The position numbers and the translations under genes were made by a program. Positions 7,935 to 51,942 of a stretch of DNA of 64,000 nt are shown here, piece by piece (position 1 is the first letter of the stretch; each line of letters starts with the position of its first letter). Source of the DNA: Spirosoma rigui (GTDB taxonomy: Bacteria > Bacteroidota > Bacteroidia > Cytophagales > Spirosomataceae); the NCBI RefSeq assembly GCF_002067135.1, contig NZ_CP020105.1, positions 4,712,001-4,776,000 on the forward strand. The letters run 5' to 3'. The notes under the pieces were generated by a model. It saw nothing but the letters and a program-made list of their open reading frames with translations, was not told the origin of the DNA and did not search any database.

Positions 7935-9023
7935 TCAACGAGGGAATGTATTCGGAAATATTGGCAGGCGACTGACGAGATTCACGATCCGCTTTTCAAC
8001 CGGCACAGCCGGTATCCCTAGTGTATCGGCATAGTCATCGCCGAGGAAGAAACGCATTTGAGCGGCTGCGAGGTTCCGGGCAGCCTCCGGACGGTCGCCG
8101 GAAATACCTACGACCGACGCAATGGCATTAAGGAGGGATCGGGTAAGGCCCATTCCCGCTTCGGATGTAGTAAACTGCCGCCGGGCAATAGACCGGTCCA
8201 GTTGATAAGCCTCGCGCAGGTTAGCGGGCAACAACTCATCCGCAACGCCATTGATGTGGGCAATGACATTGATATGGTGCAAATAGTCTTCTTCCTCCCT
8301 CTCGGTCGCCGACCCATCGCCTTCCAGCCGCCGTAGCCCACGCAGCACAACGTAGGAAAACGCGAGGTTTGTACCGGCCATATCTTCCTGGTTGACGGGG
8401 TAGCCCCAATCCATATTCCACCGCCCCGAATGCAGCGCAAACCAGCGGGCACCAGCATGGATCAGTCGAATTTTAAGGGTTCGGGAAATAGCCAGGGGGA
8501 GACCTGTGTTCTCGATCCCGGCCCCTCCCTTGGGTTGGTCCGCCGTTGCGGCAGGGGCCGGGGGCAAAGCAACCCACTCCTTCGGGTTATTAACTCCGTA
8601 GACCCATTCGCCCGTTTCCTGCAATCGGCGGGTAGTATCGTTTTTAATTCGTTCTGTAAGCCACAACACCTGAGCACCGTTGGCACCCAGGTAACAATAG
8701 GGCAGCGAAAAGCAACCCAGTGTCAGACCAATCTTTCCAGCGTATTTTTTAAAAAAAGCCATCCCCCGTGCCATGCGCTGCTCATCGGCCCAGTCGGGTA
8801 AGTTGCCGTAATCGGCAAAAAATGCCCGAACGGATTCAGGCTGATTTTCCAGCGAGAAATCAGCCGTGTCGGCCAGCCAGGTCATCATCGCCCGCAAGCT
8901 GGCGGGTCCACCCGCTTCCGTAACGGCCGTAACAACCGCGTCGGCAGGTGCGTCGCCCTGCTGGCGGTACCGGTTTAGCAGTTCGTCAGAAAACAGACGG
9001 GAAGATTTCAGGAGCGTTGGCAT
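7935..9023 (-). CDS. Oxygenase MpaB / DUF2236 family protein
   Basis: A 362-residue protein starting MPTLLKSSRLFSDELLNRY at the ATG at 9023; the frame remains open further upstream, but that stretch overlaps the 3' end of the next gene and has no protein-like character. The core (FFADYGNLPDWADEQRMARG, GLTLGCFSLPYCYLGANG, IRLIHAGARWFAL, then an NMDWGYPVNQEDMAGT segment) matches the DUF2236/MpaB family, related to latex-clearing haem oxygenases; the conserved His in IHAGAR is present. The substrate is unknown. Residues about 151-169 (ALPPAPAATADQPKGGAG) form a Pro/Ala/Gly insertion encoded by a 44-bp repeat that is also found in adenine deaminase (see 8522-8565). Confidence 0.85.
   Translation of the reverse strand: MPTLLKSSRLFSDELLNRYRQQGDAPADAVVTAVTEAGGPASLRAMMTWLADTADFSLENQPESVRAFFADYGNLPDWADEQRMARGMAFFKKYAGKIGLTLGCFSLPYCYLGANGAQVLWLTERIKNDTTRRLQETGEWVYGVNNPKEWVALPPAPAATADQPKGGAGIENTGLPLAISRTLKIRLIHAGARWFALHSGRWNMDWGYPVNQEDMAGTNLAFSYVVLRGLRRLEGDGSATEREEEDYLHHINVIAHINGVADELLPANLREAYQLDRSIARRQFTTSEAGMGLTRSLLNAIASVVGISGDRPEAARNLAAAQMRFFLGDDYADTLGIPAVPVEKRIVNLVSRLPIFPNTFPR
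8522..8565 (+). repeat. 44-bp GC-rich dispersed repeat, copy A, inside the MpaB-family gene
   Basis: The core 8537-8565 begins GGTCCGCCGTTGCGG and ends GGGGCCGGGGGC. It is identical at 28 of 29 positions to 51596-51624 inside adenine deaminase; over 44 bp the two agree at about 38 positions. Both copies lie in the same orientation on the + strand, but this host gene is on the minus strand, so the element is translated in the opposite sense. The C-rich and G-rich ends (CCCCTCCC / GGGGGC) can pair as a hairpin, as in REP-like elements. Confidence 0.8.
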
Positions 9024-9171
9024 CAGCGTGGGGTTGTGTGCCGATAACGCGGGGTGGAGGGAATTGGTTTGTACGGTGGGGCGTCTACTGCTACGGTAGC
9101 CAGTTGGCGGCTTCGCTGAATACCGGATCGGGACGGACCGGTCCCAGTGCGGCCGCCCTACAGGAACGGCT

Positions 9172-9933
9172 CTACAGGTTGATCTGCAAACCGTCGTAGC
9201 CCAGCCGGATCGTTGGGGGCAGCTCCGCATCGACCTCGCGGTGCAGGCCGAGTTTGTGGCTGATGTGGGTAAAGTACGTCTTTTCGGCACCAATGCGCTG
9301 GGCCAGCGCTACGGCCTGGTCGAGGGTGAAGTGCGAAATGTGGGGCTGCCGCTGGAGCGCGTCAAGTACCAGCACTTTCGTGCCGTATACCTTCTCCAGC
9401 TCCTGCTCGGCAATGTAATTGAGATCGGTCAGGTAGGTAAAGTCGCCGATGCGGAACCCATAAACGGGTAGTTTGTGGTGCATAACCTCGATAGGCATTA
9501 CGGGAACGCCCAACACCTCGAACGGTTCATTGGTGATCTCAGTCGTCCGCACGTGGGGTACACCGGGATATTTGTGTTCGGCGAAGATGTAGGCAAATTC
9601 CCGCTTCAGCTGCGCCAGAACGGTAGGACGGGCGTAGATTGGCATGTCCTGCCCCGACCGGAAGTTATAGGCCCGTACTTCGTCGAGACCCGCCGTATGG
9701 TCTTTGTGTTCGTGGGTAAACAAGACCGCATCGAGTTGCTTGAGCCGAAGCCGCAGCACCTGCTGGCGAAAATCGGGACCCGTATCGACAACGAAGCTCC
9801 TGCCATCGACGGCAATGTGAATGGAAGACCGCAGTCGTTTATCACGGTAATCGACGGATTGACAAACGGCACACTCACACCCAATTAGCGGTACCCCCGA
9901 CGATGTTCCCGTTCCCAGCAGTGTGATGCGCAT
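9172..9933 (-). CDS. MBL-fold metallo-hydrolase, PhnP-like
   Basis: A 253-residue metallo-beta-lactamase-fold hydrolase. The N-terminus MRITLLGTGTSSGVP at the ATG at 9933 is the standard family start; a longer frame to 10014 would read through a hairpin. The metal-binding motif is THEHKDHTAGLDE, with a further His in VMHHKLPVYGF and the C-terminal THISHKLGLH. The Cys pair in GCECAVCQS resembles the extra structural zinc site of PhnP (5-phosphoribosyl 1,2-cyclic phosphate phosphodiesterase). No other phosphonate genes are near, so the substrate is uncertain; many Bacteroidota carry this housekeeping paralogue. It lies 148 bases upstream of the MpaB-family gene on the same strand. Confidence 0.85.
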   Translation of the reverse strand: MRITLLGTGTSSGVPLIGCECAVCQSVDYRDKRLRSSIHIAVDGRSFVVDTGPDFRQQVLRLRLKQLDAVLFTHEHKDHTAGLDEVRAYNFRSGQDMPIYARPTVLAQLKREFAYIFAEHKYPGVPHVRTTEITNEPFEVLGVPVMPIEVMHHKLPVYGFRIGDFTYLTDLNYIAEQELEKVYGTKVLVLDALQRQPHISHFTLDQAVALAQRIGAEKTYFTHISHKLGLHREVDAELPPTIRLGYDGLQINL

Positions 9934-18773: not shown

Positions 18774-19424
18774 ATGCAGGCATTACCACTCAACGTTTAC
18801 CAGGATCACGATACCTTAACCCTGGCCCGGCTTCTGCTCGGCTGCGAACTCGTGCATGAGTCGCCGGAGGGCGTAACGGCGGGCATTATTGTCGAGACCG
18901 AGGGCTACATTACCGGCGACCCGGCCTGCCACGCTTACCGTCGCGCTACCAAACGGAACGCGGCTATGTTTGGGCCCGCCGGAACGCTTTACGTCTACCA
19001 GATCTATAATCACTATAACTGCATCAACGTCGTGACGGGGCCGGAAGGTGTGGGGGAAGCGGTGCTGATCCGGGCCCTCGAACCAACCGAAGGAACGGAC
19101 CTGATGGCCGCCCGCCGAAACGAGGCATTTAAAACCGGCTTCGAACGGTATCGTAACAACACCATCGACGCCACTACGCCCGAAGGTTTTCGAAATCTGG
19201 CCAACGGGCCCGGCAAACTGGTTTTTGCGATGGGCATTGATCGGGCAACCCACAATTTTGCGTCGCTGACCGAAAACACCGGACCGGCATCGCCCATCTA
19301 CATCCGCGGTCCCGTTCTGCACGATTTCGAAATGGTCACGACCACCCGCATCGGCATTAAATTCGGGGCCGATCTCCCCTACCGGTATTATATCAAAGGC
19401 AACCGGTTTGTGAGTCGAAAGTAA
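18774..19424 (+). CDS. DNA-3-methyladenine glycosylase, AAG/MPG family
   Basis: A 216-residue enzyme removing alkylated and deaminated purines in base-excision repair. Family motifs: [11 protein letters not shown], the catalytic Glu in [17 protein letters not shown], the intercalating-loop region [30 protein letters not shown], and [15 protein letters not shown]. Length and order match the compact bacterial AAG enzymes. The ATG at 18774 lies 9 bases after yicC. The last two codons and the stop are part of a perfect 78-bp palindrome shared with the convergent gene. Confidence 0.95.
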
Positions 19425-19495
19425 GGTACCCCAAATGAACAGGGCGTCTGCGTTACGTAACGCAGACGCCCTGTTCATTTGGGGTACCTTACTTT
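19418..19495. terminator. Perfect 78-bp palindrome containing the stop codons of two convergent genes
   Basis: Arms 19418-19456 and 19457-19495 are exact reverse complements over 39 bases with no spacer (centre CGTTAC/GTAACG). The left arm includes AAG-TAA of the glycosylase gene (stop 19422-19424) and the right arm includes the AAG-TAA end of the DUF6265 gene (stop 19489-19491 on the minus strand). Acting in both directions it should be a strong terminator for both genes; as DNA it could extrude as a cruciform. Confidence 0.9.
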
Positions 19496-19968
19496 ACTTT
19501 ATTGAACACGAACAAGTCAGCAAACGCCCAGCTACCGTCTTTGGGCTGGCCGCGCTGAATGACCAGCTGATTGCCCCGTTTCTGGTAGATGATCTGGATA
19601 GAACCGTCTTCTTTCTCGAACAGCGCCTGGTCTTTCTTCGCCGAAATAAACCGGTAACGATCCGATTTATCCTTTTCCTCCTGCCCGATCAGGCCGGGCT
19701 TGAAATGCTTCACCAGTACCACAGGCCCCTGTTCGGTCTGTTCAAAAATCAGCATTTCATACATCGTGACTTTGTTGTCTTTCATCATCCGCATGAAGCC
19801 GGTAAGGTTGTCGCCCACCGGGGCTATCCACGCGGCTTCGATGGGCCCGCCGTTAAAGGTTCCCAGCCAGCGGCCTTCCATAAAACTAACATCGGCGAGG
19901 GAGCCGGATTTGGGGGTCTGTGCGTAGCTGGCTACGACGGTGAAGAGGCAGAGTAAAATCGTTTTCAT
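19489..19968 (-). CDS. DUF6265 family secreted protein
   Basis: A 159-residue protein with a clear signal peptide (MKTILLCLFTVVASYAQT). The mature part has the DUF6265 pattern: SFMEGRWLGTFNGGPIEAAW, GDNLTGFMRMMKDNKVTMYEM, VVLVKHFKPGLIG and the final strand WAFADLFVFNKVK. It resembles small lipocalin-like beta-barrels of unknown function in Bacteroidota. Its 3' end lies inside the 78-bp palindrome. No neighbour suggests a role. Confidence 0.85.
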   Translation of the reverse strand: MKTILLCLFTVVASYAQTPKSGSLADVSFMEGRWLGTFNGGPIEAAWIAPVGDNLTGFMRMMKDNKVTMYEMLIFEQTEQGPVVLVKHFKPGLIGQEEKDKSDRYRFISAKKDQALFEKEDGSIQIIYQKRGNQLVIQRGQPKDGSWAFADLFVFNKVK

Positions 19969-41567: not shown

Positions 41568-41957
41568 CGGGCCAAAAACAAAAATGCCGGTAAAGGTTGC
41601 GTTCCAGAACACATACCTTCAACCGGCATTCGGATACCCAATCTACCCTCTGCTACTATAGAATTGCAGTGAATTCTTAAAGTCGCACTAACCAAATCAA
41701 TGCATCAGCTGACGGTTAAATCAGATGACACTGTCCGCAACAGCTGGGCACCCAAACGGAGAAACCCATCAATTACTTTCTTGAACAAATATGCGTTTTA
41801 TTTATTAATCGCAATAAATGTTAACTAAATATTAATGAATATATTTATTAAGCGCGACTATCAATAAATTATTGATGCTAAATACCCTATTTGGTGCATA
41901 GTTTTAATCGCGCACAGCTGGATGTCACCCATTAAAGCAGTTGCCGAGGAGCAAAAA
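41568..41957. other. AT-rich intergenic region, no gene seen
   Basis: About 390 bases between the CocE/NonD gene and the hairpin that ends the fucose operon. The section 41780-41880 is very AT-rich (TTATTTATTAATCG, AATATTAATGAATAT). I see no convincing ORF, RNA gene or repeat. Confidence 0.4.
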
Positions 41958-42002
41958 AACTGCTCGTTTAGCCTCTGTAGAACAGAGGCTAAACGAGCAG
42001 TT
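41958..42002 (-). terminator. Perfect 20-bp hairpin ending the fucose operon
   Basis: Arms 41958-41977 (AACTGCTCGTTTAGCCTCTG) and 41983-42002 are exact complements with a 5-base loop. It follows the mutarotase gene on the minus strand by about 45 bases, and a run of T on the minus strand follows the stem (A7 on the + strand, 41953-41959), so it is a good rho-independent terminator. Confidence 0.88.
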
Positions 42003-42045
42003 CTGAATAAGCGGCAGCCGAACAACCGGCCGGGTGTTCGGTCGG

Positions 42046-50493: not shown

Positions 50494-51942
50494 ATGACAA
50501 CTGCCAACATTCTGAACCTCTTCGACCGAACGATTTCATTCGGTCAGCTTTTCATTGACAATGGACGTATCACCCGCATCGAAATGCTGGGACCCGAGCG
50601 CCCCGGTGAACCATATATACTCCCCGGCTTCGTCGACGCCCACGTTCACGTCGAAAGCTCACTGCTGACTCCTCCGCAGTTTGCCCGGCTGGCGGTCGTG
50701 CACGGTACGGTCGGTACCGTATCTGACCCGCACGAGATTGGCAACGTCCTGGGCGTGCCGGGGGTGAGCTTTATGATCGATGAGGGCAAGAAAGTCCCCT
50801 TCAAATTCATGTTCGGTGCGCCCTCCTGCGTACCCGCTACTACGTTCGAAACGGCCGGTGCTACCATCGACGTATCCGGCGTTGGGGCTCTGCTCGCCCG
50901 CGATGAGGTTGGTTACCTGGCCGAAGTCATGAATTTTCCCGGCGTGCTGCACCATGATCCGGACCTGATGGCCAAAATTGAGCTGGCCAAAGCCGCAGGG
51001 AAACCCGTTGATGGGCATGCTCCCGGCCTGACCGGTGCCGACGCCCAGCGCTACATCGACGCGGGTATCACAACGGACCACGAGTGTTTTACTTACGAGG
51101 AAGGCCTGGACAAGGCCCGGCGCGGTATGAATATTCTCATTCGGGAAGGAAGTGCCGCCCGAAACTTCGACGCGCTCATTCCGCTGATGGCCGAATTTCC
51201 GGACCAGATCATGTTTTGTTCCGATGATAAACACCCCGACACGCTCGTGAAGGGACACATCAACCAACTGGCCTTACGGGCACTGGCCGCCGGGCATTCG
51301 CTCTGGAGCGTATTACGGGCTGCCTGCCTCAATCCGGTGCTGCACTACCGGATGCCCGTAGGCTTACTACGCCCGGGTGACCCCGCCGACTATATCGTCG
51401 TTGATACCCTCACCGACCTCCGGGTACTCCAAACCGTCATCGATGGGCAGACCGTGGCGGAGAATGGCACTTCGCTTATTCCCGGTTTACCGAGTGAGCA
51501 CGTCAACCAGTTCAACTGCGCGGCCAAGCGGGCAGAAGAGTTTGGTGTGTCTATGGTCCCTCACCCTCGGCAGGCGATTCCCTCTCCCCAGGGGCGGTCC
51601 GCCGTTGCGGGAGGGGCCGGGGGCGAGGGACTTCTCATCCGGGTTATCGAAGCGCTCGACGGCCAGCTGATCACGAATGAACTGTTAGTAGAGCCCCGTA
51701 TCGAGCATGGACAGATCGTTGCAGACCCCAAACGGGACATCCTGAAACTCGTTGTGGTGAACCGCTACCAGGATGCTCCGCCGGCGGTTGGATTCATCAA
51801 AAACTTCGGTTTACGCCACGGGGCCATTGCTTCCTCGGTTGGACACGATTCACACAACATTACCGCCGTTGGCTGCGACGATGAAAGCCTGTGCCGGGCC
51901 ATCAATCTGGTGATCGAAGCGCGGGGGGACTATCTGCGGTAA
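50494..51942 (+). CDS. ade: Adenine deaminase, N-terminal part of a frameshifted gene
   Basis: Adenine deaminase converts adenine to hypoxanthine in purine salvage. The metal sites and core are present: [71 protein letters not shown] and [20 protein letters not shown], to [16 protein letters not shown]. The frame stops after [13 protein letters not shown] (482 residues), while the missing C-terminus continues in another frame from 51929 to 52250. One G missing from a G6 run (51923-51928) restores the family sequence EARGGLSAVS. Restored length would be about 585 residues, normal for Ade. Residues about 358-382 are a Pro/Gly-rich insertion coming from a 44-bp repeat. Confidence 0.9.
51581..51624 (+). 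repeat. 44-bp GC-rich dispersed repeat, copy B, inside adenine deaminase
   Basis: Core 51596-51624 matches 8537-8565 at 28 of 29 bases. Here it is translated in the sense direction as part of [18 protein letters not shown], in frame, at a position where other adenine deaminases have only about ten loop residues before [15 protein letters not shown]. Flanking CCCTCTCCCC and GGGGCGAGGG can pair, which gives a hairpin-forming REP-like unit. Confidence 0.8.
51923..51928 (+). other. G6 run at the ade frameshift
   Basis: GCGCGGGGGGACTATCTG: with six G the frame runs Arg-Gly-Asp-Tyr-Leu-Arg-stop; with seven it reads Arg-Gly-Gly-Leu-Ser-Ala-Val-Ser and joins the conserved C-terminus. This could be a real mutation, a slippage site or a base-calling error. 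Confidence 0.75.

Follow-up and report, generated by a model that had tools for sequence, protein, structure and literature searches.

Palindromic repeats that are read in frame within protein-coding genes are best known from Rickettsia, with REP cases in some other bacteria. According to the sections of PMC10969869 that describe them, the Rickettsia palindromic elements (RPE) are repeated units of ~150 bp, which are translated in frame within unrelated metabolic genes. In the examples given in part of PMC3733652, REPs tagged with GTAG/CGTC lie inside genes of Opitutus, Thauera, Xanthomonas (recB) and other bacteria; intragenic dimers or groups of these REPs are translated as 20–30 residues, and in recB two Xanthomonas species have different REPs at nearly the same position. 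The REPINs, as characterized in the relevant portions of PMC3116915, are inverted doublets of hairpins with a variable spacer that fold into a long hairpin or a clover, with singletons as relics; they are described there as extragenic and RAYT-associated, and movement via a hairpin or single-stranded form is proposed. Finally, excerpts of PMC2759123 present the RU-type MITE-like units of enterobacteria as small mobile repeats that occur within annotated genes and contain open frames.

Here we report on a window, by which we mean the whole stretch of 64,000 nucleotides that was analysed, for which an original prediction had noted a 44-bp repeat inserted in frame in two unrelated genes and had likened it to the Rickettsia elements, in a Cytophagales genome. 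The likeness holds as an analogy: as in RPE, a repeated palindromic element occurs in frame inside unrelated genes. The comparison is one of description, not sequence, and the hosts belong to a different phylum with larger genomes, while the element is made of two inverted G+C-rich units of ~41 bp. Like REPINs, it is an inverted doublet of hairpin units that forms a larger hairpin, and it also occurs as singletons; unlike REPINs, as portrayed in those portions of PMC3116915, it is neither extragenic only nor tied to a RAYT in the tests made. It differs from the tagged intragenic REPs in being untagged, ~100 bp long and without a cognate transposase found, and from the RU-type units, so far as the excerpts of PMC2759123 describe them, in its sequences and hosts, having in common with them small repeats that stay open-framed within genes. 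The Spirosoma element is, hence, a protein-coding palindrome of an already known kind in a new form: untagged and with no cognate transposase found. The stretches in the window are very probably decayed copies of this REPIN-like non-autonomous element, which spreads in Spirosoma and survives in genes mainly in frame. Sequence-string and word searches of the openly licensed literature found no published description of the element's sequence or of its peptides.

The copies in the window and the genes that hold them are as follows:

7935..9032, minus strand: MpaB/Lcp-type oxygenase gene holding a copy (PF09995, E 1.7e-14)
8518..8568: decayed palindromic element copy in the MpaB-family gene; the minus-strand reading is roughly LPPAPAATADQPKGGAGIE
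8540..8551: nested mini-hairpin CCGC-CGTT-GCGG, part of a 15–16 bp sub-insert found in several copies
50494..51942, plus strand: adenine deaminase (Ade) gene holding a copy (PF01979 at residues 41–321, PF13382 at residues 391–478)
51580..51629: decayed palindromic element copy in the Ade gene; plus-strand reading of 17 residues
51599..51610: nested mini-hairpin CCGC-CGTT-GCGG in the Ade copy

As predicted, both copies lie inside open frames of unrelated genes, the MpaB-type gene on the minus strand (its longest open reading frame spans 7935–9293) and Ade on the plus strand. MpaB matches are present in 47 of the 59 genomes searched. The predicted agreement between the two copies was reproduced: positions 8537–8565 and 51596–51624 share 28 of 29 bases, all 28 fixed positions of the 29-base pattern being matched, and local alignment with the flanks gives 38 identical bases out of 44. 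With up to three mismatches allowed, this pattern found matches in 0 of 100 dinucleotide shuffles. Two parts of the prediction had to be recast. The copies do lie on opposite strands, but the sense in which each is read carries little weight for an element that is palindromic in full; likewise, the 44-bp unit stands as the shared stretch and not as the full extent, the full unit being ~94–108 bp in related species. Both window copies are worn copies of this larger element and fold no better than shuffled sequence, with fold z-scores of -1.0 and -1.4 versus -12 and -14 for two fresh copies.

The Ade copy sits in the linker between the Amidohydro_1 and Adenine_deam_C domains. In an AlphaFold2 model of the window's Ade (mean pLDDT 88.4), values below 50 occur only at residues 358–361, 363–377 and the last three, which covers most of the insert; the insert is thus modelled as a low-confidence loop on an otherwise confident fold, whose closest solved counterpart is the adenine deaminase 3nqb. 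Downstream of the insert, six consecutive G (51923–51928) mark a slip of the Ade frame, past which the conserved C-terminal ~100 residues carry on in another frame; this is either a real frameshift or a homopolymer assembly error.

The full element was first met in a related genome (G034), whose Ade gene has it at the equivalent position, as an inverted repeat of ~105 bp. At many loci, fresh copies form almost perfect palindromes of ~100 bp, with two inverted hairpin units of ~41 bp arranged around a variable spacer within a total of ~94–108 bp. The consensus of 30 copies is CCCTCACCCCCGG-CCCCTCTCCC-AAAAC-GGGAGAGGGG-spacer-CCCCTCTCCC-GTTTT-GGGAGAGGGG-CCGGGGGTGAGGG, and 10 of the 31 predicted pairs show compensatory changes, being altered on both sides with pairing kept. 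Lone hairpin units also occur, as does a second subfamily in G016 (ACCCCACCCCCGTCCCCTCCCC...). The conserved foot is CCTCACCCCCGG, the GTAG/CGTC tetranucleotide being absent from the hairpin foot of the consensus, and 10 loci gave no match to Rfam families at the gathering score. By eye, the arms of the palindrome hold few stops, with a TGA in the GGGTGAGGG foot. A mini-palindrome of 15–16 bp, roughly CGGTCSGCCGYYGCSG, is nested at differing points of the larger element in L136, L156, L154, L347, L155, L158 and the Ade copy of G032, and in places adjoins a repeated ACCTCA. In G019, loci L344–L348, L160 and L161 contain several copies with long spacers, which extend the elements to ~130–235 bp.

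The two arms of a copy resemble each other more closely than they resemble the arms of other copies (identity 0.907 within copies versus 0.862 between them; 0 of 5000 permutations as high). This was measured on 33 copies in 5 strata chosen by eye, in which the within-minus-between gap ranged from 0.009 (G016-I) to 0.085 (G032); a first test with 44 copies (0.893 versus 0.800) mixed the two subfamilies and was redone, stratified, with these 33 of them. In the TrmN6 gene of G012 (L172, ~1501–1625) the palindrome reaches ~12 bp into the host-gene flank on both sides (GTGCCGTGGTTT / AAACCACGGCAC). Arm matching and this arm extension fit template switching within the palindrome, by which the arms of a copy may have been matched to each other.

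What ties the window copies to the family is their likeness to copies of G019 in which the nested mini-hairpin is also present. Of 38 bases of the Ade copy, 36 agree with part of the element that lies in the MeaB-methylmalonyl-CoA mutase gene of G019 (score 32, against a maximum of 14 in 500 shuffles), and 26 of 28 aligned bases of the MpaB copy agree with a copy in that genome (score 22, against a maximum of 13, likewise in 500 shuffles). The 29 bases common to the window copies correspond to the second hairpin unit with the nested 15–16 bp mini-hairpin CGGTCCGCCGTYGCGG, which is found in other copies too. Against copies without the mini-hairpin (L143, L133), the Ade copy scored 16–17, barely above shuffle maxima of 15, and the MpaB copy scored 12, not above its shuffles (12–13).

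The original prediction would have been refuted by a lack of further copies in the genome; a search of the own genome (G000, 5.83 Mb) with the repeat did recover more. The Ade copy was the only other strong match (E = 1.2e-8), followed by a third, partial match at 831993 (E = 0.006). At that place (L003, 1381–1570), two element-like copies lie close together in the linker of a putative fused metal-efflux protein. Apart from the two window copies, element-like copies stand in frame in genes of the own genome whose names were read from sequence, namely for a putative metal-efflux-type fusion protein, a NuoN-like protein, a penicillin amidase and PBP1C. The TrmN6 gene of the own genome contains a decayed copy, which scored 16 against the Ade copy (shuffled maximum 13) and did not rise above shuffles against the MpaB copy. 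Short-pattern counts were close to their controls and therefore give no copy number for the own genome: GGGGCYGGGGGNGAGG, with at most 2 mismatches, matched 55 times and its reversed control 45 times; for CCGCCGTTGCGGNAGGGG, with at most 3, the numbers were 50 and 60. The 7 exact GGGGCYGGGGGNGAGG matches and some others were inspected by eye.

To related genomes the family extends broadly. The similarity of Ade to named records is 80% for S. utsteinense and 73% for S. panaciterrae, and the element-bearing relatives probably belong to Spirosoma, judging by this similarity. Among 59 genomes searched (36 in the genus, 23 outside), a 281-base stretch of the G034 Ade gene including the element had matches at E <= 1e-3 in 27, all of the same genus; the 23 genomes from outside the genus gave no match. 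Part of the matches comprise Ade coding sequence only, and the element part itself was matched in at least 13 genomes of the genus among the matches listed. Forty loci were fetched from G012, G016, G019, G022, G032 and G034. A covariance model of the family (R1) matched 30 of the 36 genus genomes at E <= 1e-3, with 112 candidates scored per genome, both strands counted, the six genomes that gave no match being G001, G006, G007, G008, G014 and G018; at E <= 0.05 it had no match in 80 Ade loci of named records. R1 was rejected as a copy counter and only its strong listed rows were used, because it also scores unrelated long hairpins: it gives the window copies only ~19 bits, and two other long near-perfect hairpins of the window, at 19411–19501 and 41957–42003, outrank both. 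These two are unrelated in sequence and are possibly terminators.

Residence in frame inside unrelated genes, which the prediction had noted for two genes, is observed in many. Eighteen of the 40 fetched copies lie within open reading frames of 100 codons or more, and at 10 of the 40 loci the copy is in frame in a gene with Pfam domains: PBP1C type and FAD-linked oxidase (G034), GH13 (G016, G012), GT9, a helicase, penicillin amidase (G019), TrmN6-type methyltransferase (G032, G012) and a chorismate-binding (PabB-type) enzyme. For the two TrmN6 genes, Pfam covers one side of the insert only, while the orthologue alignment covers both. In G016, 26 distinct places among the matches listed, a set that overlaps with the 40 loci, comprise 10 in frame in genes, 3 in genes but out of frame and 13 intergenic (7 judged by Pfam on the flanking open reading frames, 6 from the layout of open reading frames alone). 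The in-frame hosts here encode MpaB, GH13, GT9, helicase, MFS, OPT, MiaB type, LeuS, ABC transporter and FAD oxidase; nine have Pfam matches and MpaB was placed by orthologue alignment. If insert lengths are taken as random modulo 3, the probability of at least 10 in-frame copies out of 13 at 1/3 is 0.0016. The Ade, FAD-oxidase and PabB-type inserts fall between Pfam domains, and the inserts probably add a floppy loop of ~20–40 residues, rich in Pro, Gly and Arg. The frame-breaking copies in the G016 assembly are in genes for penicillin amidase, DNA polymerase I and MeaB-mutase. The one in DNA polymerase I (L330, 1501–1600) lies between the 5'-nuclease and exonuclease/polymerase parts and splits the gene into two frames in the assembly.

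The original prediction had further proposed an element selected for being tolerated inside coding DNA. Such selection is not needed, because a G+C-rich, stop-poor palindrome together with purifying selection on the host gene suffices, and because frame-breaking intragenic copies also exist in one assembly.

Alignments of orthologues show that the inserts are absent from most rows, so that the outcome of the same residues recurring across distant orthologues of Ade and MpaB was not obtained. Among 30 aligned Ade orthologues of the genus, four (G000, G034, G032, G004) have a clear insert and 26 do not, of which G027 has a slightly longer linker, possibly a remnant; the alignment left out G001, G006, G011, G018 and G019 (match, no locus), and G021 had no match. 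At the MpaB site, 2 of 30 rows (G000, G016) hold the element; among these 30, G015 has a broken frame, G011 is partial and G036 belongs to another genus. In G012 the linker at this site is longer and looks unrelated. Among 30 rows of TrmN6, the element is full in G032 and G012, decayed in G013 and G000, and a remnant in G034. It is found in G012 and G016 of 22 GH13 rows, paralogues included, and in LeuS in 1 of 28 loci with the motif (G016 only), slightly longer linkers being seen in G022, G028 and G032. The FAD-oxidase site is occupied in G034, and in G016 a copy of the other subfamily lies within a few residues of it. Moreover, the PBP1C site is occupied in G034 and G000, two MeaB-mutase sites are occupied in G016 and G019, and the segment before SNNW in penicillin amidase holds a copy in G019 and, out of frame, in G016. 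In all, nine sites hold copies in two or more genomes. This reuse of sites, and the intragenic position of half of the 26 examined G016 copies among the matches listed, set the element further apart from the tagged intragenic REPs, as those are presented in the consulted part of PMC3733652. No target-site duplication was seen at the LeuS, TrmN6 and GH13 sites, whose orthologues have diverged too far for one to be resolved. Named records supplied 47 Ade proteins (two from Spirosoma), in which the linker is usually short; three (L246, L247, L254) have clearly longer, unrelated-looking segments, and the Ade site is therefore generally tolerant. L247 and L254 come from a Winogradskyella and a Sphingobacteriales bin.

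The occupation of the same sites in distant species, the decayed copies and the remnant at the TrmN6 site of G013, G000 and G034, and loop bases that tend towards being genome-specific would all suit ancestral insertions, in which each site was hit once early, the insert was lost in most species, and gene conversion maintained the likeness of the remaining copies within a genome. A four-gene tree bears on this (36 genomes, at most 30 per gene, MpaB rows without G015 with its broken frame and G036 of another genus; some deep nodes have support below 0.6). On this tree G000/G012 and G016 share a well-supported larger clade, and GH13 and MpaB could therefore each represent one older event. The Ade carriers fall in three separate places. 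Against ancestry, the non-carriers are mostly short-linkered, as seen in LeuS and in TrmN6, where most rows have only few residues, and many separate exact losses would have to be assumed. In addition, the reading phase, judged by eye, differs between carriers at Ade, TrmN6 and FAD-oxidase, which favours independent insertion. We accordingly regard ancestral insertion as rather doubtful and a spreading element as the better account.

As to the means of spread, the prediction had raised mobilisation by a REP-associated enzyme. A classical REPIN/RAYT system, with a Y1 (REP-associated) tyrosine transposase as the mover, would suit the architecture, since inverted doublets with a long hairpin or clover are what the pertinent portions of PMC3116915 describe, and singletons occur. 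One copy in G034 (C8:46292–46385) lies 1.7 kb from a Y1_Tnp match (C8:48082–48426), just outside the scanned stretch. However, the only Y1_Tnp sequence of the own genome is a fragment that contains two in-frame TAG; strong copies are present in G003 and G029, neither of which gave a Y1_Tnp match at E <= 0.001; and none of 21 scanned Y1_Tnp loci had a copy within ~1.5 kb. The scan took in all loci of G012 (3), G016 (3), G019 (1) and G022 (2), the G000 fragment, and part of those in G032 (6 of 10) and G034 (5 of 9); it recovered 20 of 20 positive controls and gave 1 match in 128 kb of control loci. The untagged consensus likewise argues against this system. A caution comes, however, from the portion of PMC3733652 that deals with tyrosine transposase genes and REP families, which reports no clear correlation between them. 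A REP-associated Y1 transposase is unlikely as the mover, and the prediction is not supported on this point.

Transfer of insert-bearing host genes between species would explain why the carriers of one site are often distant relatives, but it is very improbable, given that the full-length Ade of G000 is closest to insert-free G033 (81%), G008 and G016 (80%), and that GH13 of G012 is about equally near insert-free G033 (75%, residues 158–584) and the carrier G016 (76%). Linkers are often Pro/Gly-rich and the window has 55% G+C, but chance convergence of G+C-rich Pro/Gly linkers has next to no probability in view of the empty shuffles and the many fresh palindromes, and is refuted for the family as a whole.

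Most likely, then, the spreading element is a non-autonomous doublet that is moved by a trans-acting enzyme, with a hairpin or a single strand as the intermediate. It would have spread within Spirosoma genomes into intergenic space and into genes, and the intragenic insertions that survive would mainly be those in frame, in tolerant interdomain linkers or variable loops. These would be translated as Pro/Gly/Arg-rich, probably disordered segments and would then decay, with the host proteins presumably still working.

A free-living genus thus lets the same sites in core enzymes be compared with a fresh insert, with a decaying one and with none; these enzymes include leucyl-tRNA synthetase, a MiaB-type enzyme, adenine deaminase, PBP1C and TrmN6. 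This makes testable 1) how such elements move without an evident transposase, 2) whether they have a target preference or are merely tolerated, and 3) how essential proteins accept ~30 new residues. The inserts also matter for annotation, since they give unrelated proteins the same Pro/Gly/Arg-rich segment.

Tentatively, the element may exemplify a cross-phylum class of untagged, RAYT-independent hairpin doublets, on Bacteroidota chromosomes and cyanobacterial plasmids, that repeatedly enter, or persist solely in, the same linkers between the domains of housekeeping enzymes, and that are moved by an unrecognised enzyme or a replication-fork process. If true, such doublets would be a natural source of linker-insertion mutations in core proteins. 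Among plasmid records, 20 matched a fresh copy, 14 from cyanobacteria and the others from Cupriavidus (a match that carries no annotation), Methylobacterium (2), Vitreoscilla, Sulfitobacter and Thiothrix. The palindromes on cyanobacterial plasmids resemble the Spirosoma element. Three matches on Pseudanabaena galeata plasmids were examined, and all three lie inside annotated genes, two for DNA methyltransferases and one for a DUF559 protein, in frame and with no stop in the stretches translated.
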